Below, one piece after another: positions 10,599-62,330 of a stretch of 64,000 bases of DNA. The position numbers were made by a program, and so were the translations under genes. This DNA comes from Bacteroidota bacterium. Its GTDB lineage: Bacteria; Bacteroidota; Bacteroidia; Bacteroidales; VadinHA17. Below the pieces are notes generated by a model. The model searched no databases. It saw nothing but the letters and a program-made list of their open reading frames with translations, and had not been told where the DNA came from. Every line of letters starts with the position of its first letter. Positions within the stretch are counted from its first letter, which is position 1. Location: positions 1 to 64,000 of the forward strand of contig DRFJ01000047.1 of the NCBI GenBank assembly GCA_011050615.1, given 5' to 3'.

Positions 10599-10903
10599 TC
10601 ATGGGATCCATTTACTCTGCTCTATTCCTGATTCATCTGCTGTTTTCCTGGCCACTACGAAAAGATAATCAGATAGTCTGTCAAGGTAACGTGCAACCGC
10701 TGTATCGCTTTCATTTTTATCGTCCAGTGAAATAGCCAGGCGTTCAGCCCTCCTGCAAACACACCGGCTTATATGCGTAAAGGCGACAGCATCATTTCAT
10801 CCGCAGTACCGTAAGCCTCAATCCTTTCATGGTGTTTAGGCACCCTGTGACCTCCAGCCAATGATGTGGTTCCATCATCACCTGTTCGTGCATATATTTT
10901 CAT
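10599..10903 (-). pseudogene. Cob(I)alamin adenosyltransferase (PduO type), internally deleted
   Basis: Reading the minus strand from ATG at 10903 gives [20 protein letters not shown]...IEAYGTADE, the classic N-terminus of PduO-type ATP:cob(I)alamin adenosyltransferases, including the ATP-binding TRTGDDGTT and the AYGTxDE element. It is then wrong and stops. In another frame, starting about 10793, it resumes as [17 protein letters not shown] and RYLDRLSDYLFVVAR, the conserved C-terminal third of the same family, ending TGA at 10599. About 80 central residues are absent. The ATG is 2 bp after the stop of the LolD-type ATPase gene, so the operon position is intact. It cannot yield active enzyme. 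The alternative is an assembly error. Confidence 0.88.
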
Positions 10904-10905
10904 TA

Positions 10906-11592
10906 TCAGTTGAGGATTTCATCACTGGCCACTTCTCCGTCCATAAGCCTTACTATCCTCTGTGCATTTCTGGCTATGCCTTCTTCGTGTGTGACGAGTA
11001 TTACGGTATTACCATCTTTATGTATCTTGTCAAGGAGTCTCATTATGTCAATGGATGTCTTGCTGTCGAGGTTACCGGTAGGTTCATCCGCAAGTATTAT
11101 GGAGGGGTTATTAACCATTGCCCTGGCAATAGCAACCCTCTGGCGCTGACCTCCTGATAGTTCATTTGGCTTGTGTTTAACCCTGTCAGACAAGCCAACT
11201 GAATCGAGTACCTTCATTGCTATTTCCTCCCTCTCAAGGCGGGGATAGCCGGCATAGATTAGTGGCAGTATCACGTTTTCATGGGCAGTATATCTCGGGA
11301 GGAGATTGAAAGTCTGGAAAACAAATCCGATTTCCTTATTCCTTATTTCAGCCAGCTGGTTGTCTTCCAGTTTGCTGACATCAGTACCATTGAGTACATA
11401 CTGTCCTTTGGTCAGGGTGTCAAGACATCCAAGAATATTCATCAGTGTTGACTTGCCTGAACCTGAGGGCCCCATGACAGCAACATACTCGTTCTTATCT
11501 ATAGACAGGGTGACCGACCGCAGCGCCCTTACCACCACCGAACCAACCTGATAGTTCTTTACTACTTCCTTTATCTCAATTACTTTACTCAT
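10906..11592 (-). CDS. ABC transporter ATP-binding protein, LolD/MacB type
   Basis: 228 residues, the usual length for stand-alone LolD/MacB-type ATPases. Walker A is GPSGSGKST (about residue 40), the Q-loop is [18 protein letters not shown], the signature is [14 protein letters not shown] (about 140), Walker B is [13 protein letters not shown] (about 160), and the switch His is in LVTHE. Such ATPases power mechanotransmission-type exporters or lipoprotein release by partnering with FtsX-like permeases. No permease gene lies nearby, so the partner must be encoded elsewhere. Downstream is the decayed adenosyltransferase (2 bp away). Substrate cannot be told from sequence. Confidence 0.9.
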
Positions 11593-11667
11593 ACTAAGTG
11601 CTTAAAAAAATTATCCGAAATTAATCCTAATATTTTAATATATAAAAATCAAACTCATTAAATAATG

Positions 11668-12489
11668 TTAATATCTTATAACAAAATCCTGTTTTACCAT
11701 TCCCTGCCGGAAAAATACCAGTCCCATCTGGAAAACATCTATACTTACTGACACCTGTGGATCACTTTTTATTTCATTCCATGCTTCATTCATTTCAAAT
11801 GAATAATTTATATCATCAAAAATTATAACAGAATCCCCGGGAATAAGTTCTTTAAGGAAGGCAAAATATTTCAATACTGCTTCTTTCCTGTGGTTTCCAT
11901 CAACAAAGACCATTGACGGTCTGAAGTTTATATCCCTGACAACGGGAAGCAGGTTACCAAAATCACCCGTCAATATATCAATATTTTGCACTTCGCCACG
12001 GGAAAAATTTTTTTTCGCGATTTCTGCCAGGTTATTACAGCCCTCCATACTTATTATTTTGGACCCGGGAGCTCCAATAGCCATAAATAAGGCGCTTATG
12101 CCCACTGATGTTCCCATTTCCAGTATATTTTGGCCATTGTAACGAAGTGCCAGGTTATACAAAACCCTTCCATACCTTTCATGAACCGATGATTTACGTG
12201 ATATGTCAGAAAGCTTCCTGTAAGATGAGGGTATACTGGCTGAACCTCCTCCCAGATCATTGACTCTGACGGTTATTTGGCTGTTTTGCATCAGTTTCTT
12301 TATACGAAGAATCACTTCCTTCCTTTCCCCTGGTATATCTTTACGAAGTACCGTATTTATAAAGTCAAAAACAAAGGGGCTGTGAATGCCATGACCCTTC
12401 CTGTGACGTGAACAGGTGAAATACTTTATAGCGGCCGCCATCCTGTAATAATTCATCAGGTGTAAAAATACTGTTGGTGAACAATTCAA
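11668..12489 (-). CDS. Class I SAM-dependent methyltransferase
   Basis: 273 residues from the tracked start; the Met at residue 17 (MAAAIKYF) is an equally good start and is closer to the conserved domain. The N-terminal signature KGHGIHSPFVFDFI is typical of a Bacteroidetes methyltransferase group. The SAM-binding region reads ILEMGTSVGISALFMAIG (motif I, about 120-140), then ISMEG (motif II) and MVFVDGNHRKEAVLKYF, an O-methyltransferase-like VDGxH. This resembles the Methyltransf_24 family. It is divergent from recG with a 55-bp gap. Substrate is unknown. Confidence 0.8.
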   Translation of the reverse strand: MNCSPTVFLHLMNYYRMAAAIKYFTCSRHRKGHGIHSPFVFDFINTVLRKDIPGERKEVILRIKKLMQNSQITVRVNDLGGGSASIPSSYRKLSDISRKSSVHERYGRVLYNLALRYNGQNILEMGTSVGISALFMAIGAPGSKIISMEGCNNLAEIAKKNFSRGEVQNIDILTGDFGNLLPVVRDINFRPSMVFVDGNHRKEAVLKYFAFLKELIPGDSVIIFDDINYSFEMNEAWNEIKSDPQVSVSIDVFQMGLVFFRQGMVKQDFVIRY

Positions 12490-12544
12490 AAATAGTTAAT
12501 TTAGAATTCAGGTTTTAAATATTCCTCAACATTTTTACCAAACA

Positions 12545-14650
12545 ATGCCTGATATCCTCGACACTGAAATAAAGTTCCTTACAGGAGTCGGACCCAAAAG
12601 GTCAGAACTGCTTGATAAAGAGCTGGGCATAAAAACCTTCCGGGATCTTCTATATTATTTTCCATATAAATATATTGACAGGACAAAATTCTATAAAATT
12701 TCAGAGCTTGACCCCGAAATGCCCTATGTACAGGTAAGGGGTGTTATTGACAGCTTCCAGGCAGAAGGAGCAGGACGAAATAAAAGACTTACCGCAAGCT
12801 TCAGGGATGATACCGGAACAGTTAAGCTGGTATGGTTTAAGGGGCTTAAATGGATCGTCGACTCTTATAAGCTGAACAAGGAATATATCATTTTCGGACG
12901 CCCGGGATTGTTCAATGAAGCAATAAACATAGTGCATCCTGAGATTGAAGACCCTGACCAGCTTGAAAAGAGGATCAGCAGCAATATACAATCACAGTAC
13001 AGTACCACCGAGAAGTTAAAGAATAATTACATAAGTTCCAAAACCATAAATAAGCTACAGGGGAATCTGTTCAAGCAGTTAGAGCCCAGGATAAAAGACA
13101 CCTTACCCTTATGGATGAGAGAAAAATACAGGTTGATGGATCTTCATGACGCACTGTTCATAACTCATTTCCCAAATGACAATAAAGACCTTGAAAGGGC
13201 TCGTTACAGGCTTAAGCTGGAAGAGCTTTTCTATATACAGTTAAGTTTACTGAGCCTTAAAATACACAGGGGAAACAGGTTCAAAGGTCATGTTTTCGGC
13301 ATTATCGGAGAGAAATTTAATGATTTCTATTCCGGTAATTTACCTTTCAAGCTTACCGGTGCACAAAAAAGAGTGGTGAAGGAAATACGAAGGGATCTTG
13401 GTTCAGGGAAGCAAATGAACCGCCTCCTCCAGGGTGATGTAGGCAGCGGGAAGACACTGGTAGCTCTTATGAGCATGCTCATTGCGATTGATAACGGATT
13501 TCAGGCATGTTTAATGGCACCCACAGAGATACTGAGTATACAGCATTATAACACCATCTCAGAAATGCTCAGGGGAATTGACATACGAATATGCCTGCTC
13601 ACCGGATCAACAAAGAAATCAGAAAGAGAACAAATTGCATCGGGACTTGATGATGGTGCAATAAATATTATTGTAGGAACCCACGCTCTTATTGAAGATA
13701 CGGTCAGGTTTAAAAAGCTTGGACTGGTAATAATTGATGAACAGCATCGCTTCGGTGTGGCACAGAGAGCAAGGCTCTGGAAAAAAGACAGGAATCCTCC
13801 GCATGTACTGGTAATGACGGCAACACCCATTCCCAGGACCCTGGCAATGACACTGTACGGCGACCTTGATGTGTCAGTTATTGATGAAATGCCTCCGGGC
13901 AGGAAGGCAGTTAAAACGATGCATTTCACCGATTCCGCGAGGTTGAAGGTATTTGCATTTATGAAGGAACAGATAAGGGCAGGGCAACAGATATATATCG
14001 TGTATCCCCTGATCAAGGAATCAGAAAAAATGGATTACAAGGATCTGGAAGACGGGGTGGAAGCCATTAGCAGGGCCTTCCCTCCTCCCCGCTATGTTGT
14101 ATCGGTAGTTCATGGCAGGATGAAATCAAAAGACAAGGCCATATCTATGAAGCTGTTCACTTCGGGCCAGGCTAATATACTTATTGCCACAACAGTCATT
14201 GAGGTGGGTGTGGATGTTCCGAATGCTTCCGTTATGGTTATCGAATCAGCTGAGCGTTTCGGACTCTCCCAGTTGCATCAGTTGAGAGGGAGAGTGGGAA
14301 GGGGAGCAAAACAGTCATACTGCGTACTTATGAGCTCTGACAAGCTTTCAAATGAAGCCCGTAAAAGGATTGAAATCATGGTAAGCAGCAACGATGGGTT
14401 CGAAATAGCAGAAGCCGATCTCAGGCTCAGAGGACCCGGCGATCTCGAAGGAACACGTCAGAGCGGGATTGGATTTGACCTCAGGATAGCAAACCTGGGA
14501 AAAGATGGCCAGATACTCGAATATGCCAGGAGGATAGCTGAAGAAATATTAAACAATGATCCCCTCCTGCAGGAAGCAAATAATGCTATACTGAAACAAC
14601 AACTTAAAAATATCAGGAAAACCGAATACGACTGGAGTAAAATAAGTTAA
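12545..14650 (+). CDS. recG: ATP-dependent DNA helicase RecG
   Basis: 701 residues, the family's usual length. It remodels stalled forks and Holliday junctions. The N-terminal wedge/OB domain lies at about 1-230 (FLTGVGPKRSELL, then DLLYYFPYKYIDR). Helicase motifs: LLQGDVGSGKT (Walker A, about 300), IIDEQHRFGVAQR (DEQH box, about 400), MTATPIPRTLAMTLYGDLD (motif III), IATTVIEVGVDVPNA (motif V) and QLHQLRGRVGRG (motif VI), followed by the C-terminal TRG region. The gene stands alone between the divergent methyltransferase and the Rnf operon, from which it is 146 bp away. Confidence 0.97.
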   Translation: MPDILDTEIKFLTGVGPKRSELLDKELGIKTFRDLLYYFPYKYIDRTKFYKISELDPEMPYVQVRGVIDSFQAEGAGRNKRLTASFRDDTGTVKLVWFKGLKWIVDSYKLNKEYIIFGRPGLFNEAINIVHPEIEDPDQLEKRISSNIQSQYSTTEKLKNNYISSKTINKLQGNLFKQLEPRIKDTLPLWMREKYRLMDLHDALFITHFPNDNKDLERARYRLKLEELFYIQLSLLSLKIHRGNRFKGHVFGIIGEKFNDFYSGNLPFKLTGAQKRVVKEIRRDLGSGKQMNRLLQGDVGSGKTLVALMSMLIAIDNGFQACLMAPTEILSIQHYNTISEMLRGIDIRICLLTGSTKKSEREQIASGLDDGAINIIVGTHALIEDTVRFKKLGLVIIDEQHRFGVAQRARLWKKDRNPPHVLVMTATPIPRTLAMTLYGDLDVSVIDEMPPGRKAVKTMHFTDSARLKVFAFMKEQIRAGQQIYIVYPLIKESEKMDYKDLEDGVEAISRAFPPPRYVVSVVHGRMKSKDKAISMKLFTSGQANILIATTVIEVGVDVPNASVMVIESAERFGLSQLHQLRGRVGRGAKQSYCVLMSSDKLSNEARKRIEIMVSSNDGFEIAEADLRLRGPGDLEGTRQSGIGFDLRIANLGKDGQILEYARRIAEEILNNDPLLQEANNAILKQQLKNIRKTEYDWSKIS

Positions 14651-14759
14651 ATGAAAGATTGATTTGGTTTTTAAATTAAATGCTTATTTAGATTAATTCT
14701 ATATTATTTTACCCCGTTTAAAAACTGATATTATACATATATAATTTAGCAGCATATTA

Positions 14760-14767
14760 TAAATTTG
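14760..14767 (+). promoter_or_regulatory. Possible -7 element of the Rnf operon promoter
   Basis: TAAATTTG fits the Bacteroidetes -7 consensus TAnnTTTG and lies 30 bases before the rseC-like start, inside the only sizeable gap (146 bp, AT-rich) ahead of the Rnf operon. I see no good TTTG -33 element at the expected 19-21 base spacing, so the call is tentative. Confidence 0.4.
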
Positions 14768-14796
14768 CCCATTCTAACCATGCATGGTCGCAGATA

Positions 14797-15219
14797 ATGC
14801 AAAAAGAAAGTACAATCGAGCATACCGGTATTGTTAAATCAGCAGGCGAAGACTATGCAATTGTTGATATTGTAGCGCATCCTGCCTGCTCAGGATGCCT
14901 GGCCTCAGGCATATGTGATCTTTCGGCGCAAAAGAATAAGGAAATAAGGACAATTAACAATACTGATGTAAAAGCCGGTGACCGTGTGCTTGTTGTAATG
15001 AGGCAATCATTAGGTTTCAGAGCCCTCTTTCTGGGTTACCTGCTCCCTTTTATCGTGGTAATGATTATTTTAATCATTATGACATCCTTATCCTTTTCAG
15101 AACCGATTAGTGGCATTACTGCCCTGCTGTCGCTCATCCCCTACTATATCATAATCTACCTTAAGAAGGAAAAAATCGGCAAGAGCTTTTCATTTACCAT
15201 AAAAAAACAGATTACATGA
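14797..15219 (+). CDS. rseC: RseC/MucC-family protein, first gene of the Rnf operon
   Basis: 140 residues. The N-terminal soluble part holds [16 protein letters not shown], a cysteine cluster shared by SoxR-reducing/RseC family proteins. Two transmembrane helices follow (about 72-95 and 100-120) and a short basic C-terminus. RseC proteins are often encoded with Rnf genes and are thought to assist a SoxR-reducing or Rnf-type complex in the inner membrane. The stop overlaps the rnfB start by 4 bp (ATGA), firmly placing it in the operon. Confidence 0.85.
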
Positions 15220-16079
15220 GTTCTGTAGTACTAATCACAATAATATCATTAAGCCTGTTAGGTGTAATAGCCGCCCTTATATTATATTTTGTAGCCAGCA
15301 AGTTCAAGGTATATGAAGATCCCCTGATTGACGAGGTGGAAGCAGCCTTGCCCGCTGCCAATTGCGGCGGTTGTGGTTTCGCAGGTTGCAGGAACTTTGC
15401 AGAGGCACTTGTTAAGTCTGATACTTTTGAAGGGCTGAGTTGTCCTGTTGGTGGAAACGAAACAATGGCCCTGGTAGCAAAGATACTCGGCAGGGAAGCA
15501 CCTGAGGTTGAACCAAGGGTTGCCGTGGTAAGATGCAACGGCACTCCCGGGCACAGGAAAAAAACATCCCGTTACGACGGCGAACTGAACTGTACCATAG
15601 CACATAACCTCTACAGGGGTGAAACAGATTGCCAGTATGGTTGCCTCGGGCTGGGTGAATGTGTTGATGCATGCGATTTTGATGCGATGTATATGGACAG
15701 CAAAACAGAATTGCCTGTAATTATTGACGATAAATGTGTTGCCTGCGGAGCATGTGTAAGAGCCTGTCCGCGGGATATAATCGAACTCAGGAAAAGAGCC
15801 AGGAAAGACAGGAAGATATTTGTATCGTGTGTAAACAAAGACAAAGGAGGTCCTGCCAGGAAAGCCTGTGCAGTTGCATGCATCGGATGTGGAAAATGTC
15901 AGGAGGTCTGTAACTTTGATGCCATCACCATTGAAAATAACCTTGCTTTCATTGATTCTGATAAATGTAAGCTTTGCAGGAAATGTGAGCCGGTTTGCCC
16001 TACGGGAGCAATACTGGAAATTAATTTTCCACCACGTAAGTCTGAGCAAACGAAGGAAGCTGAGAAAGCAGAAGCATAA
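15216..16079 (+). CDS. rnfB: Rnf electron transport complex subunit B
   Basis: 287 residues. It has an N-terminal membrane anchor (about 4-25), then a 4Fe-4S cluster motif [11 protein letters not shown] with a later Cys (LSCP), followed by several ferredoxin-type CxxCxxCxxxCP motifs: [23 protein letters not shown] and [12 protein letters not shown]. RnfB accepts electrons from reduced ferredoxin and feeds them into the complex. Length and cluster number fit the long RnfB of anaerobes. The C-terminal tail is charged. Its start overlaps the rseC-like gene; rnfC follows after 31 bp. Confidence 0.95.
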
Positions 16080-16110
16080 TATAATATAGTTAAACCTAAA
16101 ATAACATAAA

Positions 16111-17445: not shown

Positions 17446-17471
17446 GCATCATAAGAAATATACATTAAATA

Positions 17472-42504: not shown

Positions 42505-44025
42505 ATGCAACTTAATCCAAAGACAGTTATAATAATCGTTCTGGTAGCTTTATCCTCATGTATGCACAGGCCTGAAAATGAAGAAGGTCCCTATTATAAA
42601 AAATCAGTATCCTTTCCTCCCGGCCTGAGCCAGGAAGATAAAATAAAAATGGCTGCAAGAGTAGTCCCTGACAGTCAACAACTTGAATGGCAAAAACTTG
42701 AAATGACCGCCTTCATTCATTTCACAGTAAATACTTTCACAGGTCTTGAGTGGGGAACGGGAGAAGAGTCACCTGAATTATTCAACCCATCGGAATTCGA
42801 TGCAAGACAGTGGGCAAGGATAATTTCTGAAGCAGGCATGAAAATGATAATTCTGACATGTAAACATCATGACGGTTTTTGCCTCTGGCCTACAAAAACA
42901 ACTGATCATTCCGTAAAATACAGCAGATGGCGTTCAGGCAGAGGTGATGTTGTTAAAGAGGTTAAGCAAGCCTGTGATGAGTATGGACTCAAGTTTGGTA
43001 TTTACCTGTCGCCCTGGGACAGGAATGCTGAATCATATGGAGACTCACCTGCATATAATAATTTTTTCATGGAACAACTTAAAGAATTATTAACATGGTA
43101 TGGTAAAGTGGATGAGGTGTGGTTTGACGGAGCCAATGGTGAGGGACCAAACGGGAAGGTTCAGGTATATGACTGGGAATCCTATTACCGGCTTATTGAA
43201 AGGTACCAGCCCGGGGCTGTAACGGCCATAATGGGAGAAGACATAAGATGGGTAGGCACCGAAACGGGATATGGCAGGGAAACGGAGTGGAGCGTAACAG
43301 CCCTGGCACCTGGTGGTGGTATTGAAAGCAGGAACATAAATGAAAATCTCGGCCTGCAGTCCAGCTCTCCCGATCTGGGCTCGGGAAAAATTATTGAAAT
43401 GGCGGATAAACTTTTCTGGTATCCTGCAGAAGTAGATGTATCAATACGCCCGGGATGGTTTTACCATAAGGAGGAAGATGATAAGGTCAAATCACTTGAA
43501 AAATTGTTCGACATATATATTAATTCGGTTGGCAGAAACGCAGTTTTACTGCTAAATATTCCCCCCGATACCCGGGGACTGATTCATGAGAATGATGCCA
43601 TGAGGCTGAAAGAGCTTAAGACCTGCCTTGACATGACTTTTGAAGATAATATCGCCTTCAGGGCCTTTACCCGCCATCCCGGTGCCCGGAAAAGTGTTGA
43701 CGGTAAGGATGGCACATATACCAGTATTGATGAATTTCCGGCTGAAATTGAATATAAATTTCCTTTTACCAGGGAATTTAATCTCTTCATGATCAAAGAA
43801 AACATAGCAAAAGGTCAGAGAATAGAAGAATTCAGGATAGAAGCCCTGGTAAACGAAGATTGGGTTGAACTGGGATCTTCGACAACGGTAGGATATAAGA
43901 AGCTACTCACCTTCCCAAATACAACAAGTGACAGGATAAGACTTACAATCAAGCAATCAAGAGATAAGGCCATGATTACTGAAATAGGTCTGTTTTTAAC
44001 ACCTGACAGTATAAGTGCAGATTGA
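42505..44025 (+). CDS. Alpha-L-fucosidase, GH29 family, lipoprotein
   Basis: 506 residues. Lipobox LSSC-M follows a short signal. The GH29 catalytic domain includes KLEMTAFIHFTVNTFTGLEWG, LTCKHHDGFCLWPTKTTDHS and VDEVWFDGANGEG, where the Asp of WFDG is the expected nucleophile. A C-terminal region from about 380 looks like a discoidin/CBM32-type beta sandwich. It cleaves terminal alpha-L-fucose from glycans outside the inner membrane. Neighbouring pectin- and rhamnose-directed genes suggest a complex plant or algal polysaccharide. Confidence 0.92.
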   Translation: MQLNPKTVIIIVLVALSSCMHRPENEEGPYYKKSVSFPPGLSQEDKIKMAARVVPDSQQLEWQKLEMTAFIHFTVNTFTGLEWGTGEESPELFNPSEFDARQWARIISEAGMKMIILTCKHHDGFCLWPTKTTDHSVKYSRWRSGRGDVVKEVKQACDEYGLKFGIYLSPWDRNAESYGDSPAYNNFFMEQLKELLTWYGKVDEVWFDGANGEGPNGKVQVYDWESYYRLIERYQPGAVTAIMGEDIRWVGTETGYGRETEWSVTALAPGGGIESRNINENLGLQSSSPDLGSGKIIEMADKLFWYPAEVDVSIRPGWFYHKEEDDKVKSLEKLFDIYINSVGRNAVLLLNIPPDTRGLIHENDAMRLKELKTCLDMTFEDNIAFRAFTRHPGARKSVDGKDGTYTSIDEFPAEIEYKFPFTREFNLFMIKENIAKGQRIEEFRIEALVNEDWVELGSSTTVGYKKLLTFPNTTSDRIRLTIKQSRDKAMITEIGLFLTPDSISAD

Positions 44026-44362
44026 AAAAAACTTATTAAAATAATAATATCCAAGTTCTTACAAAACATTCTTCTACTGCAGAATTGCCTGTTACAGGAA
44101 TTACTTTCCTGCTTTTAGTTACTGCACTGTTTACCAGGGGTTTTACCAGTGCACTCCTCCTGGAGGCCTGAGTATTGCTGGTTTCAATTAAGATAATTAT
44201 GATGCATTATAAACATAGTCTCTCAACCTGAATACACTTAACAAGCCGGAAGAAATTGAAGAGATTGATAAAAACAGGGAATAAGAAACAGACGTGTCTC
44301 TCCTGCATCATTTCGAACCAAATATTTATTAAATTAGGGATTTAATTCTTAAATCCTTTATT
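44026..44362. other. 337-bp gap with a possible small degraded reading frame
   Basis: Between the GH29 and GH28-like genes. On the plus strand around 44077-44170 one frame reads TAELPVTGITFLLLVTALFTRGFTSALLLEA and then stops, which looks like a membrane helix followed by an amphipathic stretch; a second piece, LNKPEEIEEIDKNRE (about 44236-44285), is open in another frame. Neither has an evident start and I do not recognise the family. No promoter or terminator stands out. Given the other gene remnants in this window it may be one more. Confidence 0.3.
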
Positions 44363-48734: not shown

Positions 48735-48914
48735 GTAAGAATAAGAAAAATAACATCCGGAGGCCAGTCCGGCGTTGACAGGGCAGCTCTTGATGCAGCC
48801 CCGGAACTGGGACTTGAAACCGGGGGATGGTGCCCCCCGGGCAGGGTTTGTGAGGGCGGGATCATCCCCCGGGCTTATAATCCGGATGAAACGAATAATG
48901 AAAGATTCAGATTA
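48735..48914 (+). pseudogene. Putative molybdenum-carrier (cpYpsA/MoCo_carrier-like) protein, N-terminal fragment
   Basis: A plus-strand frame reads RKITSGGQSGVDRAALDAA, then LGLETGGWCPPGR and AYNPDETNNERF, which matches the N-terminal third of the putative molybdenum-carrier family (SGGQTGVDRAALD...GGWCPKGR). Similarity ends about 48914, after some 60 of the roughly 150 residues expected, where the dehydrogenase 3' end begins. There is no ATG or GTG start in frame before the homology. It is a remnant cut at its C-terminus; the flanking genes are intact. The minus-strand ORF 48596-48865 is its shadow. Confidence 0.8.
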
Positions 48915-48930
48915 AGCCCTCCTTACATAT

Positions 48931-49971: not shown

Positions 49972-50233
49972 TCAGATTAAAACAAACATTAATTACATTC
50001 TCATTAATAATTTCAAATATAAATTTAAGACCATTAATGACCACATACAAATAAAATCCAAATACTTTTTCGTTTCTGATATCTTTGTATTTAGAATATT
50101 AATAAAGTAATTTGGGAGTGCCAAATAGTGTTTAGTGACCAGGACAATGAAATATTTCTTCAATTGGAGAACAAAATAAACTATAAAATTAAATGCGGAT
50201 TGTCTGTAAGCGCATATCATCTTGGATAAGAAA
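49972..50233. other. AT-rich divergent promoter region upstream of the NifS-SelD gene
   Basis: About 260 bp without a gene. It is markedly AT-rich up to 50110. TATCTTTG at 50080-50087 fits the -7 consensus TAnnTTTG for the plus strand and would leave a leader of about 140 bases before the ATG at 50234; no matching -33 box was found. The leader could hold a regulatory RNA, but I see no strong stem. The divergent dehydrogenase promoter must also lie here. Confidence 0.4.
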
Positions 50234-53964: not shown

Positions 53965-54289
53965 ATGGCACGATTTATTAAAGACTGTTCCCAGGCAAAA
54001 GGTAAAGCTCCGGGCTCACTGGTTCTTATCGGGCGGTAAAAAATGGAAAAACCCCGGATCAGGATAATGGATTACAGTCCTGACTACATGAATGAATCAG
54101 GTAATAAAAGTACTGACAATTTTCGCTTCCATTTTCATTCCTCTTACATTTATTACCGGTGTATATGGAATGAATTTCACAAACATACCTGAACTGAGCC
54201 TGAAATATGGTTATCTTTTCTTCTGGATCTTTATAATCATAATTGGCATTTCACTTATATTATTCTTTAAAAAGGAGAAATGGCTTTAG
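53965..54289 (+). pseudogene. corA: CorA-type magnesium transporter, internally deleted
   Basis: From ATG at 53965 the frame reads MARFIKDCSQAKGKAPGSLVLIG, an in-frame TAA, then MEKPRIRIMDYSPDYMNES. This resembles the N-terminus of CorA proteins in Bacteroidetes. It then jumps frame at about 54089 to MNQVIKVLTIFASIFIPLTF ITGVYGMNFTN, the first pore helix with the signature GMN motif, a second helix, and the stop at 54289. About 240 central residues are missing, plus one nonsense codon. The start is 2 bp after the decarboxylase stop. It cannot encode a working channel. The tracked 65-residue ORF at 54092 is only its C-terminal part. Confidence 0.88.
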
Positions 54290-54306
54290 AATAAATAAAT
54301 TTCGAT

Positions 54307-54684: not shown

Positions 54685-54749
54685 TACTGAGGCGTTTTAC
54701 AGCAAGTGAATCCTGATAAAATATCAGGCCTGAAGAATTAAGATTTATT

Positions 54750-54791
54750 AGCCAGGCAACCAGCGGATATTGGTTGCCTGGCTTATTTTTT
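54750..54791 (+). terminator. Rho-independent terminator after the RRM gene
   Basis: A perfect 13-bp stem (AGCCAGGCAACCA with TGGTTGCCTGGCT), an 8-base loop, then TATTTTTT, 66 bases past the RRM stop. It is the strongest hairpin I found in the window. There is no gene in the flanking 54685-54886. Confidence 0.92.
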
Positions 54792-54886
54792 GAAGCCGGA
54801 TTATAATAAATAAAGTATTAGTAAATTTGTATCTAATAAAATGGTGAAGCTATAGTTTAAATTGTATTGAAATAATATTCCCGGTT

Positions 54887-55282
54887 ATGAAAAAAATAAT
54901 TATGATTATGGTTATTGTGACTTTCTTTATTGGTAATGCCCTTTCTCAAACCAGGCAGGCAAGTCACTCCGCAGCTCTTAAAACAGGTGTAAAAACAGTA
55001 GACCTTATTAACGGACTGAAGATCAAAGTGGATTTCAGTCCTGAAAAGGGCACCCTGTGGTTTACAGGAGAATCCAAGGACCTTAAGATGTTTATTACTG
55101 AATTCATTCCCCTGACTGATCCCATTGAAACCGGAATTGAAATAGGGAAAAGCTACCACCTGGATAATATGTATGTCAGTATTGAGTATAAGGTCCTGAC
55201 TATAGAAAATAACAGGGTTACACGTATCTGGTTCAGAATAGCAGCCGCACAACTTGAACTGCCCCAGAAGAACTGGATATGA
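54887..55282 (+). CDS. Small secreted protein of unknown function
   Basis: 131 residues. The N-terminus MKKIIMIMVIVTFFIGNALS-Q is a clear signal peptide; the rest is a compact, mostly beta protein (TVDLINGLKIKVDFSPEKG, TLWFTGESKDL) without any motif I can name. It lacks a lipobox. Its stop (TGA, 55280) is 1 bp before the quinone-oxidoreductase ATG, so they likely share a transcript. Confidence 0.65.
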   Translation: MKKIIMIMVIVTFFIGNALSQTRQASHSAALKTGVKTVDLINGLKIKVDFSPEKGTLWFTGESKDLKMFITEFIPLTDPIETGIEIGKSYHLDNMYVSIEYKVLTIENNRVTRIWFRIAAAQLELPQKNWI

Positions 55283-55283
55283 T

Positions 55284-56261
55284 ATGAAGGCGGTAATACA
55301 GGAAAAACCAGGTGATAAACTGTACGTCAAAGATATTCCTATACCTGAGCCGGGAAAGGGTGAAGTACTGGTAAAAATGAATTATGCACCAGTCAATCCC
55401 TCTGACCTCAGCCTTCTACAGGGCACATATGCAGGCAGTCACAACTATCCCCTTATCCCTGGGATAGAAGGCAGCGGACAGGTAGTTAAAAGCGGCAAGG
55501 GTATTATTGCCAGATCAAGAGAAGGTAAAAGGGTGGCATGTACAGCATCAGGTCAAAGCTATGGAACATGGGCAGAGTATATGGTTACTTCAGCCCTCAG
55601 GACAATACCCCTGGACAAACATATAGATGATGAACAGGGCTCAATGCTTCTTGTTAATCCCCTTACTGCAGTAGCCTTTATCGAAATTGCCCGGAAAGAT
55701 AAAAAGACTGCCCTTGTGAATAATGCTGCGGCCAGCTCACTTGGAAAAATGCTTATAAGCCTCTGCAGGGAAAATAATATAGGCCTGATTAATATTGTGG
55801 CAAGGGAATCCCAGTACCAGTACCTCAAAGAACTTGGTGCCGATTATGTACTTAACAGCAGCTCACCGGATTTTGAAAATGAACTTGCCAGACACTCAGA
55901 TCTTCTCGGGGCAAGGCTCTTCTTTGATGCTGTGGGAGGGAAACAGGCAGAAACCATGTTAAAAGCATCACCTCCGGGAAGTACTATAATTACATATGCA
56001 AAGTTATCCGAACGGAATATACGTGTTGATCCTCGTTTACTCTTACAGCAGGGTAAGAAAATAACAGGTTTCTACCTGGCTAATTATATTTCCGGCAAAT
56101 CAATATTACAGAAACTCAGAGCTACAGGAAAAGCCAAAAAACTACTGTCAGAAAATATTACCATAAAAGTGTCAGCCAGATACCCCCTGGAAAAGATTAA
56201 TGAAGCCCTGGAATATTACCGAAATAATATGTCATCAGGCAAAGTACTGCTTTACCCGTGA
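55284..56261 (+). CDS. Zinc-binding/quinone oxidoreductase family dehydrogenase
   Basis: 325 residues from ATG 55284 (MKAVIQEKPGDKLYVKD); the tracked start at 55254 overlaps the previous gene and adds ten unlikely residues. It is a medium-chain dehydrogenase of the quinone oxidoreductase/Zn-less subgroup: MNYAPVNPSDLSLLQG near residue 40, GIEGSGQVV, and the cofactor domain with AAASSLGKMLISL. No zinc-site cysteine cluster is present. It probably reduces quinones or enones with NADPH. Substrate is unknown. Confidence 0.85.
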   Translation: MKAVIQEKPGDKLYVKDIPIPEPGKGEVLVKMNYAPVNPSDLSLLQGTYAGSHNYPLIPGIEGSGQVVKSGKGIIARSREGKRVACTASGQSYGTWAEYMVTSALRTIPLDKHIDDEQGSMLLVNPLTAVAFIEIARKDKKTALVNNAAASSLGKMLISLCRENNIGLINIVARESQYQYLKELGADYVLNSSSPDFENELARHSDLLGARLFFDAVGGKQAETMLKASPPGSTIITYAKLSERNIRVDPRLLLQQGKKITGFYLANYISGKSILQKLRATGKAKKLLSENITIKVSARYPLEKINEALEYYRNNMSSGKVLLYP

Positions 56262-56275
56262 TATATCCTGATTTT

Positions 56276-57115
56276 TTATCTGCTGAATAACTTAAGAGTC
56301 CGGGACAGACTGTCACGTATTTTATCAAAGGCTTCATCACTAAAAACCATGAGTTCTTTTTGTAAAGCAATATATTCTTCATTCAATTTCTCATCTGGTT
56401 TTTCTGCCGAATTCAAAAATGCGGTAAGCGATCGTAACAGTACAGCATGGTCGTGCCAGTCTCCTATACAGGTTTCGGTAGCATTCAGGTGTTCATAATG
56501 ACTTCTGGTAAAAATATTATCCTTCCGTCTCCATATCAGGGCCAGGAGGGGTTTGATATTTTTCATCACAATACGGACTTCGTGAATATACTGTAAATCT
56601 TCCTGTCCATCCAGCATATTCCTGATTCCATCTGTTTCTGAATAAATAAAGCCGGTAATAAAACTGACAAGCTCTGATCCGGTATGCCGTGAAAGCAATT
56701 CTCTTACCCGGTCGTTGCAATCTTTAAGCCCTGCATAACTAAAAGTATGGATTAGTTTATCAAGATCCGCCTCCCATCCTGTTCTCAGACGGGCAATATA
56801 CCTTGAATATGATTTACATAACTCCCCTTCACAGGGAGCTTCTCCTAATAAACGCAGATTAATCTGACTCTCCCTTATCAGTCCGGCTTGCTTGAAAACA
56901 GGCTTGAAAAGTTGATAATGGTCTTTTGCATTGAAATCTGAGGAGTAAATATACCCGAGCAGACGGAAAATCGATTTAAGCCTTTTTATCCTTACCCGCA
57001 GTTTGTGCAGGTCTTTAAGCCTGTAACTTCCGGGGATGGCCTTCATGAAAGAATAAATATCGCCTATCTGCCTGTTATAGTACACCAGAAGAAATATTTT
57101 TTTCTGCCTGTTCAT
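56276..57115 (-). CDS. CHAD domain-containing protein
   Basis: 279 residues, all-helical, soluble. Conserved His and basic residues of CHAD domains appear as DLHKLRVRIKRLKSIFRLLG (about 35-55), YIHEVRIVMKNIKPLLAL (about 175-195) and IGDWHDHAVLLRSL (about 220). CHAD domains bind inorganic polyphosphate through these basic faces and are often paired with CYTH triphosphatases; none is visible here. It is convergent with the quinone oxidoreductase, 14 bp apart. Confidence 0.85.
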   Translation of the reverse strand: MNRQKKIFLLVYYNRQIGDIYSFMKAIPGSYRLKDLHKLRVRIKRLKSIFRLLGYIYSSDFNAKDHYQLFKPVFKQAGLIRESQINLRLLGEAPCEGELCKSYSRYIARLRTGWEADLDKLIHTFSYAGLKDCNDRVRELLSRHTGSELVSFITGFIYSETDGIRNMLDGQEDLQYIHEVRIVMKNIKPLLALIWRRKDNIFTRSHYEHLNATETCIGDWHDHAVLLRSLTAFLNSAEKPDEKLNEEYIALQKELMVFSDEAFDKIRDSLSRTLKLFSR

Positions 57116-57197
57116 TATAATATATTGTAAGGCTTTAAATTAAGTAAAATTCACCAAAATGCTTAACAATTCAGGTATTCATTATAAATAATTCAAT

Positions 57198-57228
57198 AAC
57201 ACAATAAGACCCAATTGTGTTAACTTTG
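57198..57228 (+). promoter_or_regulatory. Inverted repeat overlapping the trmO promoter
   Basis: An 8-bp perfect inverted repeat, AACACAAT-N8-ATTGTGTT (57198-57221), abuts TAACTTTG (57221-57228), which fits the TAnnTTTG -7 consensus. The ATG of trmO is 18 bases further on. Placed across the region between -33 and -7, it would be a good operator for a repressor, although it may be a chance palindrome in AT-rich DNA. Confidence 0.45.
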
Positions 57229-57245
57229 AAAAAAATCAGGCCATT

Positions 57246-57731
57246 ATGAAATTTGAATTTAAACCTGTCGGATTTATCAGGACACAAAACAGGGAATTGG
57301 CAGGAACCCCCATACAAGCCTCATATGCACAGGATTACACAGGCAAAGCAGAAATACTCCTTGAATATATCCCGGGCCTTAAAGATCTGGAAGGATTCTC
57401 CCATGTTATACTGATTTACGTTTTCGACAGGCATAAGAGAGGCGACTTTAAGCTTCAGGTTCAACCATACCTGGATGATGAAACAAGAGGCGTATTCGCG
57501 ACAAGGGCTCCTAAACGGCCGAATAACATAGGCCTTTCAATAGTAAAGGTTCAACAGATAAAAAATAACATGATATTTTTTTCGGGGGCCGACATGCTTG
57601 ACAATACACCTTTGCTTGATATCAAACCTTTTATCCCTGAATTTGATTATGGTGAGAACTTCCGCATCGGATGGCTTGAGGACAAAATAAAACTCAGTGA
57701 AAAAAAAGAAGCTGATGACAGGTTTAAATAA
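57246..57731 (+). CDS. trmO: tRNA (N6-threonylcarbamoyladenosine(37)-N6)-methyltransferase TrmO
   Basis: 161 residues, the normal size for a TsaA-like beta-barrel methyltransferase. FKPVGFIRTQ at the N-terminus and RAPKRPNNIGLSIVKV (the SAM-binding RPN..G motif, about 95-110) are the family marks, as is LEGFSHVILIYVF. It methylates t6A37, made by TsaD (29.4 kb in this window), to m6t6A. The reverse complement of its 3' end overlaps the ORF of the Lgt-like remnant. Confidence 0.93.
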   Translation: MKFEFKPVGFIRTQNRELAGTPIQASYAQDYTGKAEILLEYIPGLKDLEGFSHVILIYVFDRHKRGDFKLQVQPYLDDETRGVFATRAPKRPNNIGLSIVKVQQIKNNMIFFSGADMLDNTPLLDIKPFIPEFDYGENFRIGWLEDKIKLSEKKEADDRFK

Positions 57732-57754
57732 AAATTCCGGGGATAAAGAATACA

Positions 57755-57908
57755 CAGAAGAGTCAAAGCCAATACAACATCCTGCAAAGAGACATCCAGG
57801 TTTCTGTATTGCAGGTCCTAAAGGCAGCACCCATGCATATAAGCGCAATACGGGCTTTTTAAAACTCAAAAGCCTTTTTGCCAGCAAACCTCCTGCAAGG
57901 GTAAAATA
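57755..57908 (-). pseudogene. Lgt-like (prolipoprotein diacylglyceryl transferase family) fragment
   Basis: A minus-strand frame reads TLAGGLLAKRLLSFKKPVLR LYAWVLPLGPAIQKPGCLFA GCCIGFD. The LPLGxAI...GC...AGCC-G pattern resembles the Lgt family segment that contains LPLGLAIGRIGCF, with the usual RI lost. It runs without a proper start and merges into the antisense of trmO, so no complete gene is present. A poor ORF of the plus strand (57697-57990) is its shadow. Moderate confidence only: it rests on one short block. Confidence 0.5.
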
Positions 57909-58116
57909 TTATTGCAATAATAGTCTCTGTCGTAGTCTTCCGGATTGGTTGATTTATTTCTTTAACAGAAAAATACAACATTTAGGCTGAATAATTATTG
58001 CAACCGGGAAATTCTTTTTTTTACCCGATTTTTATTGGTGAAATCCTTAAATCAAACGCATTTATTTATTTTTACTGTTTCTTTAAAAACTAAAGAAATG
58101 TGCTGATTAGGTTTCC
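57909..58116. other. Gap without recognised genes
   Basis: About 200 bp between the Lgt-like remnant and the VTT-domain gene. AT-rich, with T-runs near 58014 and 58021. No promoter match or hairpin stands out, and I recognise no coding signal. Confidence 0.5.
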
Positions 58117-58677
58117 ATGAAAGTAAAAAGAAAGATCAGAAAAAAAACCTTTTACCTCTGGCTGGTGATTATTGCTATATTACTGGCCCTGTATTTTATT
58201 AACAAGGACTGGTTTGATATAAGCTTCCTGCAAAGATTTGTTGATGATAATAAATTCCTGGTAATCACGATATATCTTTTAATACTTACACTTATCGGTC
58301 TCACATTCATCCCTTCAACACCATTTGCAATGGCCGGTCTCCTTCTTTTTCCCGCCCTTGAAACATTTATTATAAACATGATTGGTATAATAAGCTCAAC
58401 CGCTATTGTATACTATTTTACACGTTTTCTCGGACTGGATAAATGGATAGAGCTGAAATTTCCAAAGCAGATCGAAAAAACCAGGAAGGCACTGAGCAAT
58501 AAGGAACTTCCCATTATTATCGGATGGAGCTTCTTTCCGATTGTACCCACGGATCTGATCATTTATGTTGGTAGTTCACTGCGTATATCGTATCTTAAAT
58601 CTGTAACCGGAGTACTCATTGGTGAAGGCGCCCTTAACGCATTATATATCTTTTCATTTGACTTTTTTTTCCTTTAA
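58117..58677 (+). CDS. VTT-domain (TVP38/TMEM64/DedA-like) membrane protein
   Basis: 186 residues, about five membrane helices after a basic N-terminus (KVKRKIRKK). IGLTFIPSTPFAMAGLLLF and GWSFFPIVPTDLIIYVGSSL are typical of the VTT/SNARE-associated family, with the F-x-P...G pattern in re-entrant helices. These proteins are linked to lipid scrambling or undecaprenyl-phosphate flipping in DedA relatives. It ends with an aromatic tail. The porin-like gene starts 39 bp downstream in the same direction. Confidence 0.85.
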   Translation: MKVKRKIRKKTFYLWLVIIAILLALYFINKDWFDISFLQRFVDDNKFLVITIYLLILTLIGLTFIPSTPFAMAGLLLFPALETFIINMIGIISSTAIVYYFTRFLGLDKWIELKFPKQIEKTRKALSNKELPIIIGWSFFPIVPTDLIIYVGSSLRISYLKSVTGVLIGEGALNALYIFSFDFFFL

Positions 58678-58716
58678 CCTGACAAATTTTGAAAATGCTT
58701 TTTAAAAAAATGTATT

Positions 58717-59793
58717 ATGAAAAAATATCTAATATTGATCATCGCCGGTATTTTAAATATTATTACAGGATATTCTCAGGATGGCAAAGAACAAATACCA
58801 TTTTTGCAGAATACCACCATATCAGGAGAATGGTTCCTCGGATTTGGATACAACGATTATACTGAAATCAGCGCCTTTTATCTCAAAAGGGGGTATTTTA
58901 CTATCAGAACCAAAATTAATGATGTCTTTTCCGTAAGATACACACAGGATATAACAACAGATACTGAGGGAAGCGATATGGGAAATGTCGAAATGAGACT
59001 TAAGTACCTGCTGTTAAAAGTTAATCTTATAAATAACGATTTACTGAAGAATTCTTACCTGGAATTTGGACTGGTTCACAGGCCCTGGCTCTGTTATGAA
59101 CAGAGTATAACAGGTTACCGGGTACAGGGCAAAATGTATACTGATAGATATAATCTTCTCAGCTCAGCTGATTTTGGGGTAACATATTCAGGTCTGCTGG
59201 GAGGTGAGATGAACCAGGAGTACAAGGATAGGGTAAGCTCATATTTCCCTGGCAGGTATGGCAGTTTCAGCTTTGGAATTTATAACGGGGGCGGTTATCA
59301 TGCACTCGAAAAAAATAACAATAAAATCATTGAGGGCAGACTGAGTGTCAGGCCCCTGCCTGATAAAATACCTGGATTTCAATTATCCTATTCATTCTCT
59401 TACGGTAATTCTAATACTGCCTTGAACAATGCAAAGTACAGGTTAAATATTTTTCATCTTTCTTCACTGAGTAAAAATCATAAATTAATGATCCAATATT
59501 ACCAGGGTACAGGAGGACATGGCGATGATTATACTGATTCCGACGGGTTTTCATACCAGAATAAGGGCTACTCGGGTTTTGCAGAGATAATGATACCCGG
59601 AACATCCTTTTCATTGTTCTCCAGGTATGATAAGTTTATATCTTACCAGGATACGAAACAGATACAGAACACTTTCATAGCAGGAATAACATACCGGTTC
59701 CTGAGAAATAAAGTTTTACTGAACTTTGACCAGAATGAAAATAGGGGTATTTATACAAGGATTTATGAACTTGCCCTTGAAATAAACTTTTAA
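58717..59793 (+). CDS. Outer-membrane beta-barrel (porin-like) protein
   Basis: 358 residues with a signal peptide (LILIIAGILNIITGYS-QDG). The mature part consists of alternating aromatic/polar strands such as GYFTIRTKINDVFSVRYTQD and IQNTFIAGITYRFLRNKVLLNFDQNE, and ends in a C-terminal beta strand with terminal aromatic (ALEINF), characteristic of outer-membrane barrels. It resembles phosphate-selective porin O/P or general Bacteroidetes porins, but I cannot name a substrate. Confidence 0.75.
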   Translation: MKKYLILIIAGILNIITGYSQDGKEQIPFLQNTTISGEWFLGFGYNDYTEISAFYLKRGYFTIRTKINDVFSVRYTQDITTDTEGSDMGNVEMRLKYLLLKVNLINNDLLKNSYLEFGLVHRPWLCYEQSITGYRVQGKMYTDRYNLLSSADFGVTYSGLLGGEMNQEYKDRVSSYFPGRYGSFSFGIYNGGGYHALEKNNNKIIEGRLSVRPLPDKIPGFQLSYSFSYGNSNTALNNAKYRLNIFHLSSLSKNHKLMIQYYQGTGGHGDDYTDSDGFSYQNKGYSGFAEIMIPGTSFSLFSRYDKFISYQDTKQIQNTFIAGITYRFLRNKVLLNFDQNENRGIYTRIYELALEINF

Positions 59794-59814
59794 TAAATTA
59801 AAAAGCAAAAAGAA

Positions 59815-60148
59815 TCAGTTATTTATCAACCGTGTATATTCTAAGGGTGTGCTTACAGCATGAACGTTCCCGGGTAATTCCCCTTAAATATTCCGTACAA
59901 GAACACCACTGGCAATAATGACCCGATCCTTAAATGCAGCGGAAAGAGCTTCAATGTATTCATCATTATTAATACCTGAAAACCCTGATGATGTTGATCA
60001 ATTTTCTGAGATCATCGTCTGTATATCTTCTCCTGTTGGTAGAAGTGCGGTGTGGCCTGATAATACCGTATCTTTATTCCCATATTCTTATCGTATGAAC
60101 TTTACTGTTCGAAAGCTTCTCCAAATCCTTTATGGTATACTCTCCCAT
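59815..60148 (-). pseudogene. MerR-family transcriptional regulator, internally deleted with nonsense codons
   Basis: From ATG at 60148 on the minus strand: GEYTIKDLEKLSNSKVHTIRIWE-stop-RYGIIRPHRTSTN, the MerR winged-helix start in which the normal WEQRYG is broken by TAA (CAA to TAA). It continues RRYTDDDLRKLINI, then loses frame and the middle. In another frame it resumes NDEYIEALSAAFKDRVIIAS and GELPGNVHAVSTPLEYTRLI, resembling the C-terminal end of a B12-binding-type regulator, with a further TAA between. It ends TGA at 59815. The plus-strand ORF 59918 is a shadow. It is a clearly dead gene; the family is firm, the B12-binding part is inference. Confidence 0.85.
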
Positions 60149-60276
60149 CGGCCTGGTTTTATTGTTTTAAATATATCAATTTATTAAACAATTAAAATGT
60201 GTTAAATGGTTTAGTCCGGTTTCGAGGTCAGTATTATTCCTGTATTTTTTTTATATTGTTCAAAAAATGTACAGGT

Positions 60277-60762
60277 ATGAATAATATAAGGTTTCTTTTG
60301 TCCCTCATGGTATTTATGCAAGCCTGTGTATCTGCCGACAACAATCCGGAAACTGTAACGGGTGTAATTAACGAAGCAGTTTATGATTCGGTTCTTGCCC
60401 GTGAACTCAAGGCTGACTCTTATGGCATGAAGCAGTATATAATGGCTTTCCTGATCCGTGGAGACAGCAGTTCGGCTGACAGCGCTGAAGCAGCAAGATT
60501 ACAAAGAGCACATCTGGACAATATAACCAGGCTGGCACAAGAAGGTAAATTATTGCTTGCCGGCCCCCTCCTTGATGATACTGATATTAGGGGTATATAT
60601 ATATTTAACGTAAGTACTGTTGAAGAAGCAGAAAAGCTGGCCGGATCGGATCCTGCAATAAAGGCAGGCGTTCTTAAAATGGAACTTCACCCCTGGTATG
60701 GATCAGCTGCACTTCAAAAACTGAATGAAATTCATGCAAGGATTCAGTCCGGCAATATTTAA
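60277..60762 (+). CDS. YciI-family lipoprotein
   Basis: 161 residues from ATG 60277 (MNNIRFLLSLMVF), preceded by an AGG site; the tracked start at 60199 adds 26 residues with no signal sequence. Lipobox FMQAC-V marks a lipoprotein. The domain MAFLIRGDS...LQRAHLDNITRLAQEGKLLLAGPLLDD is the YciI/DGPF fold, with the conserved His and the AGP loop; YciI-type domains are found in peroxidase-like or metabolic enzymes, and the extracytoplasmic form is common in Bacteroidetes. Function unknown. Confidence 0.82.
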   Translation: MNNIRFLLSLMVFMQACVSADNNPETVTGVINEAVYDSVLARELKADSYGMKQYIMAFLIRGDSSSADSAEAARLQRAHLDNITRLAQEGKLLLAGPLLDDTDIRGIYIFNVSTVEEAEKLAGSDPAIKAGVLKMELHPWYGSAALQKLNEIHARIQSGNI

Positions 60763-60800
60763 TAATTCATTAAATATAAAATAGTACGGAAGGAACAAAA

Positions 60801-60953
60801 CGAATATATTTATTTGTCATAGACGGTAAAATAGAAAAAGGGAAAGATATTCCTTGAAAAAGGGATGCAATAGGTATTGCGGAAACAGAAGAAATTGATA
60901 TAAAAGCATTTAATTAATCCTATATTTTGTTAATTGAAATACCAATGACTTAA
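60801..60953 (+). pseudogene. Pirin-family protein, C-terminal fragment with nonsense codons
   Basis: A plus-strand frame reads RIYLFVIDGKIEKGKDIP-stop-KRDAIGIAETEEIDIKAFN-stop-SYILLIEIPMT-stop. This is the final beta strands of the pirin cupin family (VYLFVI.G...RDG.GI.ET..I.IKA...LLIEIP). Two in-frame stops (TGA and TAA) and loss of the N-terminal 80% make it a remnant. It sits between the YciI gene and the nitroreductase fragment. Pirins are often quercetinase-like or transcription-linked proteins. Confidence 0.83.
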
Positions 60954-60965
60954 TCAAATTTTACT

Positions 60966-61040
60966 ATGGAAATAGCCAATCTGATAAAAACCAGGTGGAG
61001 TCCCGGAGCTTTCAGTGATCATACACCAAGGAATGAGGAA
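60966..61040 (+). pseudogene. Nitroreductase-family protein, N-terminal fragment
   Basis: Starting at ATG 60966 is MEIANLIKTRWSPGAFSDHTP, which matches the usual start of nitroreductase/flavin reductase proteins (xxLIKxRxSPRAFSDxPV), here with a damaged R to G. Similarity stops within 25 residues, after which the frame runs straight into the signal peptide of the MBL gene. The ORF track fuses the two. It stands 12 bp after the pirin remnant, the pair perhaps having been one operon. Confidence 0.65.
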
Positions 61041-61067
61041 ATTTACATTCAAAATATTGAAAATATT

Positions 61068-61994
61068 ATGATGAGAGTAATGTTGAGGTTTTCATTAATT
61101 CTCCTGCTGCTTGTGCCGGTATCACTAATTGCCCGGGGACAGCCTTATATAATTGTTCTCGGGGTGGCACAGGATGGTGGTTATCCTCATATGGGCTGTA
61201 CAAAGGAATGTTGCAGATCAGCATGGGAAAATCCCTCCATAAGGAGAAACGTAGTTTCTCTTGCCCTGGTGGATCCTGTTTCACAGCACTGGTATCTTTT
61301 TGAAGCAACTCCGGATATCAGGGAACAATTACATCTTTTCAGGCAACTTACATCGGGGAAATACAATTACCTTCCGAGGGCGGTATTTGTGAGTCATGCC
61401 CACATAGGTCATTATACCGGGCTGATGCAATTCGGGCGCGAAGTGATGAATACAGATGGTATTAGCCTGTATGTAATGCCACGGATGAAGGCTTTCCTGG
61501 AGAATAACGGCCCCTGGGATCAGCTTGTGAGACTTGAGAACATTATACCAGTGGAGATAAATGATGGTTCGGAACTTGCCATTTCAGAAGAAATTACCGT
61601 CAAGAGCTTCTCGGTGCCACACCGCAATGAATACTCAGAAACGGCAGCTTACAAAATAATAGCCGGTAACAGGTCTTATCTTTTTATCCCTGACATTAAC
61701 AAATGGGATAAAATGAATAAGGATATTATCAGTCTTGTTCAATCATCTGACATATCTTTCCTCGATGGTACCTTCTATTCCCAAGGTGAGCTACCTGGAC
61801 GTAATATGGATGAGATCCCCCATCCCTTTATAGTGGAAACAATGGAACTGTTCAGCCGGGAAGACAAAGAGACGAAGAATAAAATACATTTTATTCATTT
61901 CAACCATTCCAACCCGGTGCTTTACAATAAAGGCATCCGGGAAGAGATACTGACCAAAGGGTTTAATATTGCTGAGCAAGGACATAATTACTAG
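61068..61994 (+). CDS. PqqB-like MBL-fold metallohydrolase, exported
   Basis: 308 residues from ATG 61068 (a further Met at 61071 is equally possible); the tracked start at 60966 lies in the nitroreductase fragment. A signal peptide (LRFSLILLLLVPVSLIARGQ) sends it out of the cytoplasm. YIIVLGVAQDGGYPHMGCTKECC and VSHAHIGHYTGLM resemble PqqB-type beta-lactamase-fold proteins; in the metal motif the usual H-x-H-x-D-H is HAHIGH, with Gly replacing Asp, and a CTKECC cluster may bind zinc. Other motifs are SVPHRNEYS and HFIHFNHSNP. Substrate unknown. Confidence 0.85.
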   Translation: MMRVMLRFSLILLLLVPVSLIARGQPYIIVLGVAQDGGYPHMGCTKECCRSAWENPSIRRNVVSLALVDPVSQHWYLFEATPDIREQLHLFRQLTSGKYNYLPRAVFVSHAHIGHYTGLMQFGREVMNTDGISLYVMPRMKAFLENNGPWDQLVRLENIIPVEINDGSELAISEEITVKSFSVPHRNEYSETAAYKIIAGNRSYLFIPDINKWDKMNKDIISLVQSSDISFLDGTFYSQGELPGRNMDEIPHPFIVETMELFSREDKETKNKIHFIHFNHSNPVLYNKGIREEILTKGFNIAEQGHNY

Positions 61995-62005
61995 ATCATA
62001 ATACT

Positions 62006-62330
62006 ATGGGTCCTGTCTGGTTAAGCATAGCATTTGTCTTTGGTTTCCTGATAAGGCTGATTGGATTACCACCGCTGGTAGGATATTTAATAGCAGGATT
62101 TGTGCTTATTTTTTTTTGGCGCCGAGTCGGGTGAGTTTATCGAAACAGTTTCTGACCTCGGTGTAACCTTATTGCTTTTCACCATTGGTCTGAAGCTGAA
62201 AATAAAGAACCTGCTCAGGCATGAGGTATATGGAGGTGCGCTTATTCATATGCTGATTATTACTGTTATATTTGCCGAGGCAGGTTCGGGGCTTGCCGAC
62301 CATATATGCAAAACCTTTTCAAACAGTTGA
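62006..62330 (+). pseudogene. CPA2 (Kef-like) cation:proton antiporter, truncated and frameshifted
   Basis: From ATG 62006: GPVWLSIAFVFGFLIRLIGLPPLVGYLIAGFVL, the first helices of a monovalent cation:proton antiporter-2. A frameshift at a run of ten T's (about 62110-62119) moves the reading to GAESGEFIETVSDLGVTLLL FTIGLKLKIKNL and GGALIHMLIITVIF, again typical N-terminal CPA2 sequence, before AEAGSGLADHICKTF and stop at 62330. The remaining 300 or more residues are absent. The tail AEAGSGLADHI might be the family's C-terminus, which would imply an internal deletion, but this is uncertain. The ORF 62100-62330 is part of it. Confidence 0.85.

Follow-up and report, generated by a model that had tools for sequence, protein, structure and literature searches.

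Probable recent pseudogenes and deletion scars between intact genes in a draft genome of the Bacteroidales lineage VadinHA17

Introduction

The accumulation of deletions has been described as the primary force in the erosion of bacterial pseudogenes, and in Salmonella most pseudogenes carry a single lesion and few have lost more than 20% of their length (Kuo and Ochman, 2010; PMC2916853). We analysed a stretch of 64,000 nucleotides (hereafter the window; bases 1-64000 of contig G000:C9, which is about 100.7-100.8 kb long) from a Bacteroidota bacterium of the lineage VadinHA17, whose draft assembly (G000; 2.74 Mb, 71 contigs, 85% complete) presents here a series of genes that are broken, or reduced to short scars, between intact neighbours. 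As in the system described by Kuo and Ochman, the pseudogenes are syntenic and lie between conserved genes, mutation is biased towards deletion and few old remnants persist; unlike in Salmonella, the remnants have mostly lost 40-80% or more of the gene and the genomes compared are far more diverged. Two other described systems concern single genes of the window, namely the B12-dependent MerR photoregulators of the CarH/LitR type and the non-orthologous displacement of the PduO-type cob(I)alamin adenosyltransferase by the CobA/BtuR type. We propose, with a probability of roughly 0.9, that the fragments are real and fairly recent pseudogenes and deletion scars produced by ordinary deletion-biased loss of dispensable genes.

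Results

Broken genes and their intact counterparts

The comparison set included three genomes of the same genus, G001 (UBA9300), G002 and G003 (RecG identity 81-87%). Judged by their shared proteins, G000, G001 and G002 stand at about the same distance from one another and G003 is slightly farther; DNA identity between the genomes compared is about 75%. Since G002 is collinear with the entire window, all open reading frames (ORFs) of the matching G002 region were used as tblastn queries against it, and splice alignment gave the junctions and deletion sizes for most broken genes. The placement by splice alignment was unreliable at the MerR, CPA2 and photolyase/redoxin gaps, where the tblastn pieces were used.

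Most genes of the G002 region are full length in the window. An earlier note, made from the sequence of the window, had named eight broken genes, and seven of these fragments match intact G002 genes at the same place: a PduO-type adenosyltransferase, a cpYpsA-family protein (called a molybdenum carrier in the note), CorA, a MerR/B12-binding regulator, a pirin, a nitroreductase and a CPA2 antiporter. The eighth, an Lgt-like fragment (minus strand, inside 57736-58116), was rejected, as it gave no Pfam hit at E<=1 and has no relative at any related locus compared. Counting length differences of at least 100 bp, the window shows 12 deletions relative to G002, for a total of 14.1 kb, and no place was found where it exceeds G002 by as much. 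Of the G002 genes with 100 aa or more, 17 are broken or missing across the entire contig, and 16 of these fall inside the window; two smaller genes bring the number broken or gone in the window to about 18. The neighbours are intact, as the note had stated: 77 G002 genes have full-length G000 counterparts on the contig, and all G000 genes there that reach 100 aa have a G002 counterpart.

Six extra in-frame stops interrupt the 531 aligned codons of the retained pieces, and the CPA2 piece also has a frameshift. The pooled ratio of nonsynonymous to synonymous differences (pN/pS) of these pieces is 0.265, with variation between individual fragments, against 0.165 +/- 0.033 in same-size samples of intact neighbouring genes, of which 2 of 500 resamples reach 0.265. 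This raised ratio suggests that the genes were constrained through most of the divergence and died recently. The independent assembly of G001 also has lesions in its MerR, nitroreductase, redoxin and fasciclin genes, but different ones: the MerR gene is cut after about residue 54, the nitroreductase is reduced to residues 117-184, the redoxin is a fragment and the fasciclin protein has one domain left of four. No photolyase was found at the G001 locus.

The features of the window are as follows.

10602-10903 (-): PduO-type cob(I)alamin adenosyltransferase (ATR) pseudogene; residues 1-38 and 114-180 kept, about 238 bp (about 76-80 aa) lost
near 10795-10807 (-): ATR junction, with an in-frame stop near it
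44011-44058 (+): scar left where 1.76 kb is deleted, with the loss of a 165-aa gene and of all but the last C-terminal codons of a gene for a two-domain universal stress protein (Usp); it replaced the final codons of the intact upstream gene 42505-44025
44058-44219 (+): what is left of a gene for a 73-aa membrane protein, interrupted by one in-frame stop
about 48765-48920 (+): N-terminal remnant of a cpYpsA/SLOG-family gene (PF12694, E=1.5e-18); the 632-bp deletion took a DUF2905 gene as well
50160-50221 (+): scar of a macro-domain-like gene; first 9 or so and last 13 or so codons left, 408 bp (about 136 aa) lost
50188-50191 (+): junction of the macro-domain-like gene, which is intact in G001 and G002
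53965-54286 (+): CorA pseudogene; about 42 codons kept from the N-terminus and 65 from the C-terminus, in different frames (about residues 1-42 and 290-354 of the G002 protein), one in-frame stop, 740 bp (about 246 aa) lost, junction at 54090-54091
57732-58116 (unstranded): gap of about 390 bp in place of the photolyase and two redoxin genes of G002, the photolyase being present in G003 as well; its left edge lies a few bases past the TrmO stop
58678-58716 (unstranded): scar left by the deletion of about 0.89 kb, with which a gene for a 213-aa outer-membrane-like protein was lost
59824-60148 (-): pseudogene of a MerR and B12-binding (CarH/LitR-like) regulator; residues 1-53 and 234-290 kept, two in-frame stops, about 540 bp (about 180 aa) lost
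60188-60276 (unstranded): scar left by the deletion of about 2.0 kb, with which a four-domain fasciclin gene was lost; G002, G003 and G008 have this gene
60804-60950 (+): C-terminal remnant of a pirin gene (residues 189-237) that contains two in-frame stops; the deletion took 744 bp, and its edge lies 2-4 bp past the stop of the preceding gene
60966-61994 (+): 342-aa fusion ORF, the start of a nitroreductase (60966-61043, first 25-28 aa or so) in frame with an intact metallo-beta-lactamase-fold gene; a deletion of about 2.49 kb took the remainder of the nitroreductase together with an aldehyde dehydrogenase gene
62006-62309 (+): CPA2 antiporter pseudogene; residues 1-89 kept, including a frameshift, and fused to a C-terminal AEAGSGLADHIC stretch that was read from the translation; about 424 codons lost, the gene being intact in G001, G002 and G003

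In the fusion ORF, the metallo-beta-lactamase-fold gene probably still uses its own start at 61068, ahead of an apparent signal peptide. A 209-aa chimeric ORF elsewhere in the genome (G000:C2:20863-21492, minus strand) consists of the ends of two different G002 genes and represents a further fusion made by deletion. In G001, the slot of the aldehyde dehydrogenase holds an unrelated minus-strand gene resembling S-adenosylmethionine (SAM)-dependent methyltransferases (G001:C142, reverse complement, about 5030-6130). Two intact genes of the window were also recorded. The 73-aa gene at 10296-10514 (-) encodes a protein 100% identical to that of G002 and 97% identical to that of G010, a genome of another genus, its neighbours being far less conserved; the alcohol dehydrogenase-like gene at 55254-56261 is split into two ORFs in G002, where it may be a broken gene of that genome or a sequence error.

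Direction and extent of the losses

Intact copies of PduO, the photolyase, the MerR regulator, the fasciclin, the nitroreductase, the aldehyde dehydrogenase, CPA2 and the macro-like gene are present in G003, G001 or G008; these eight genes are therefore ancestral and mostly polarised as losses in G000. For CorA, cpYpsA, the pirin and the 73-aa membrane protein gene, remnants persist in G000 itself. The losses that left no remnant comprise the photolyase, both redoxins, the outer-membrane-like protein, the fasciclin, the aldehyde dehydrogenase, the DUF2905 protein and the unclassified 165-aa protein.

We extended the survey to about 190 kb in three collinear blocks, randomly sampled contigs having overlapped poorly between genomes. 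Across these blocks G000 is shorter than G002 in 25 events (24.4 kb) and longer in 9 (5.9 kb). G000 was also compared directly with G001 and G003, because both of these are shorter than G002 here as well: there are 7 shorter events (10.3 kb) and 1 longer (0.3 kb) against G003, and 5 shorter and 2 longer against G001, so that the excess of deletions over insertions holds against more than one reference. Losses occur in all three blocks sampled. That of the window is the densest, and the two others exhibit the same bias in a weaker form, with similar part-genes. The suggestion of a deletion-biased genome reduction thus stands for the deletion bias (25 against 9, and 7 against 1). A strong genome-wide reduction, as in a symbiont, is not evident from the assembly size, which is 2.74 Mb (85% complete), genomes of the genus measuring 2.8-3.4 Mb.

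Survival of gene ends

Both ends are kept in five genes (ATR, CorA, MerR, CPA2 and the macro-domain-like gene), with about 76 to about 424 aa missing; the earlier note had recognised this pattern correctly, for three genes with 80-240 residues missing. It had also judged the pattern foreign to random decay, which the counts do not bear out. When the observed deletion sizes of the eight single-gene events were placed uniformly into the G002 gaps, both ends were expected to survive in 2.9 of 8 cases, or in 3.4 of 8 with 40 bp protected beside each neighbour; the excess in the observed 5 of 8 is not significant (P = 0.07 and 0.14, respectively).

Observed deletion edges often lie a few bases from a retained stop codon. 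Short direct repeats, which the note had proposed to look for at the junctions, were not found beyond chance at the deletion edges (longest shared words 4-7 bp, about 4.6 expected), as judged in the G002 sequence, the lost G000 sequence not being known. Repeat-mediated deletion was rejected for this lack of enrichment.

A B12-dependent regulator and a photolyase

The intact G002 regulator is composed of a MerR domain, a B12-binding_2 domain and a B12-binding domain, and W-x9-EH and E-x-H-x-x-G motifs can be read in the protein. We take these motifs to be typical of CarH/LitR photoregulators. A photolyase gene lies within about 5 kb of the regulator in G002 and G003, and in G007 a B12-binding hit in a 301-aa frame, of a size similar to the regulator, is located about 1.4 kb from a photolyase. 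In its domains, motifs and photolyase link, the G002 protein thus resembles the B12-dependent MerR photoregulators; unlike in CarH/LitR systems, the regulator is broken in G000 and no photolyase was found in that genome. The intact ancestor, as a putative photoregulator, would have controlled neighbouring genes in response to light through adenosylcobalamin. The regulator is broken and the photolyase absent in both G000 and G001. We infer that a light-response module was dropped, the MerR regulator and the photolyase being lost together, and that both would have become dispensable because of the loss of this module.

A broken PduO-type and an intact BtuR-type adenosyltransferase

PF01923, the PduO family, has matches in 23 of 24 genomes, a remnant only in G000 and G010. 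The ATR pseudogene is the sole match in G000, and the gene is intact in G001-G003. In G010 the remnant occupies the corresponding position and retains a few N-terminal residues and the C-terminus, again with a stop. Intact genes for a BtuR-type enzyme (PF02572) occur in G000, G001, G002 and G010, and both enzymes are therefore intact in G001 and G002. PF02572 was not found in G003, G008 and G012, where PduO is intact. In G000, the BtuR gene is clustered behind a TonB-dependent receptor gene and a DUF5074 gene. Within this comparison of only seven genomes, the PduO-type enzyme has likely been displaced by the unrelated BtuR-type enzyme in G000 and G010, and the intact BtuR-type gene is a candidate cause of the PduO decay. 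This resembles the non-orthologous displacement of PduO by CobA/BtuR, in that genomes with the broken enzyme have an unrelated one annotated with the same activity, and G001 and G002 represent two-enzyme intermediates. Unlike in that displacement, two separate lineages still carry the putatively displaced gene here, as a pseudogene in syntenic position.

The broken PduO gene and a missing methylmalonyl-CoA mutase prompted us to consider a coordinated loss of all adenosylcobalamin use, which was rejected because G000 retains the intact BtuR-type gene and, at a contig end, a partial B12-dependent ribonucleotide reductase. The mutase was not found in the G000 assembly, from which the 37-kb G002 contig that carries it (G002:C6) is essentially absent; the missing region may reflect a gap in the assembly or else an extensive loss.

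Discussion

Ordinary deletion-biased loss would account for the window as follows. Selection would have been relaxed on a set of accessory genes; illegitimate deletions of about 0.24-2.5 kb, not mediated by repeats, would have removed gene interiors or several genes together; and those entering adjacent intact genes would have been purged. Such purging would leave edges inside dead genes or just past retained stop codons, with gene tips left standing, and the remaining pieces would then gather stops and frameshifts. Why each gene became dispensable we can only infer. Several points weigh against this reading. Every genome compared is a draft assembly, and G000 itself is 85% complete. The shortness of G001 and G003 relative to G002 marks the latter as a gene-rich reference, which explains part of the deletion excess. 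The DUF2905 gene, one redoxin gene and the outer-membrane-like protein gene left no remnant and could be gains of G002. Finally, losses of at least 40% of a gene exceed those typical of young Salmonella pseudogenes (Kuo and Ochman, 2010).

It seems unlikely that non-homologous deletions (0.2-2.5 kb) arise unusually often in this lineage, for instance through altered end-joining or repair, and outpace the normal decay of accessory regions. A process specific to the lineage or locus that deletes gene interiors (a repair defect, programmed deletion or a hotspot) appears very unlikely. It could draw on the clustering of 11 of the 14 deletion events of the contig within 18 kb (44-62.4 kb; binomial P ~2e-6, for a region picked post hoc), on the cut of the MerR gene near the same codon (53/54) in G000 and G001, and on the five genes of eight with both ends kept. 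However, that last count is within chance, no motif or repeat is common to the edges, and the clustering tracks the positions of accessory genes that are also absent or lost here in G001 and G003. No special deletion process is needed.

We give an equally slim chance to a recurring assembly artefact, in which joins over missing or low-coverage middles, or collapsed repeats, would have truncated genes that are intact in the organism. The note had offered this alternative, and the fragmented, incomplete draft makes it worth considering, but the six stops and the frameshift, the raised pN/pS, the 77 full-length neighbours and the different lesions in the same genes of G001 all disfavour it, as do edges that, in the intact relative, have no direct repeats of a size that an assembler could collapse. 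An artefact at a single junction may still be present. That the kept ends, for example the 65-codon C-terminus of CorA or the N-terminal segment of CPA2, are retained because they encode short proteins with a function is hardly credible, for although pN/pS values as low as those of intact genes (0.13-0.14) are found in the C-terminal piece of CorA and the middle piece of CPA2, this divergence covers the time before inactivation, the CPA2 frameshift lies upstream, and other pieces have stops, frameshifts or pN/pS values up to 0.59.

Ordinary deletion-biased loss is a process already known; what is new here is this example of it, together with the likely replacement of one enzyme by another. The window offers a polarised set of bacterial gene-loss intermediates, in a neighbourhood that decays in parallel in related lineages, and it cautions that gene fragments in such drafts need not be assembly errors. 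It also presents the coupled loss of a B12-dependent regulator with a photolyase and an apparent enzyme replacement caught midway, with decay of the PduO-type adenosyltransferase, among the genomes compared, only where a BtuR-type enzyme is present.

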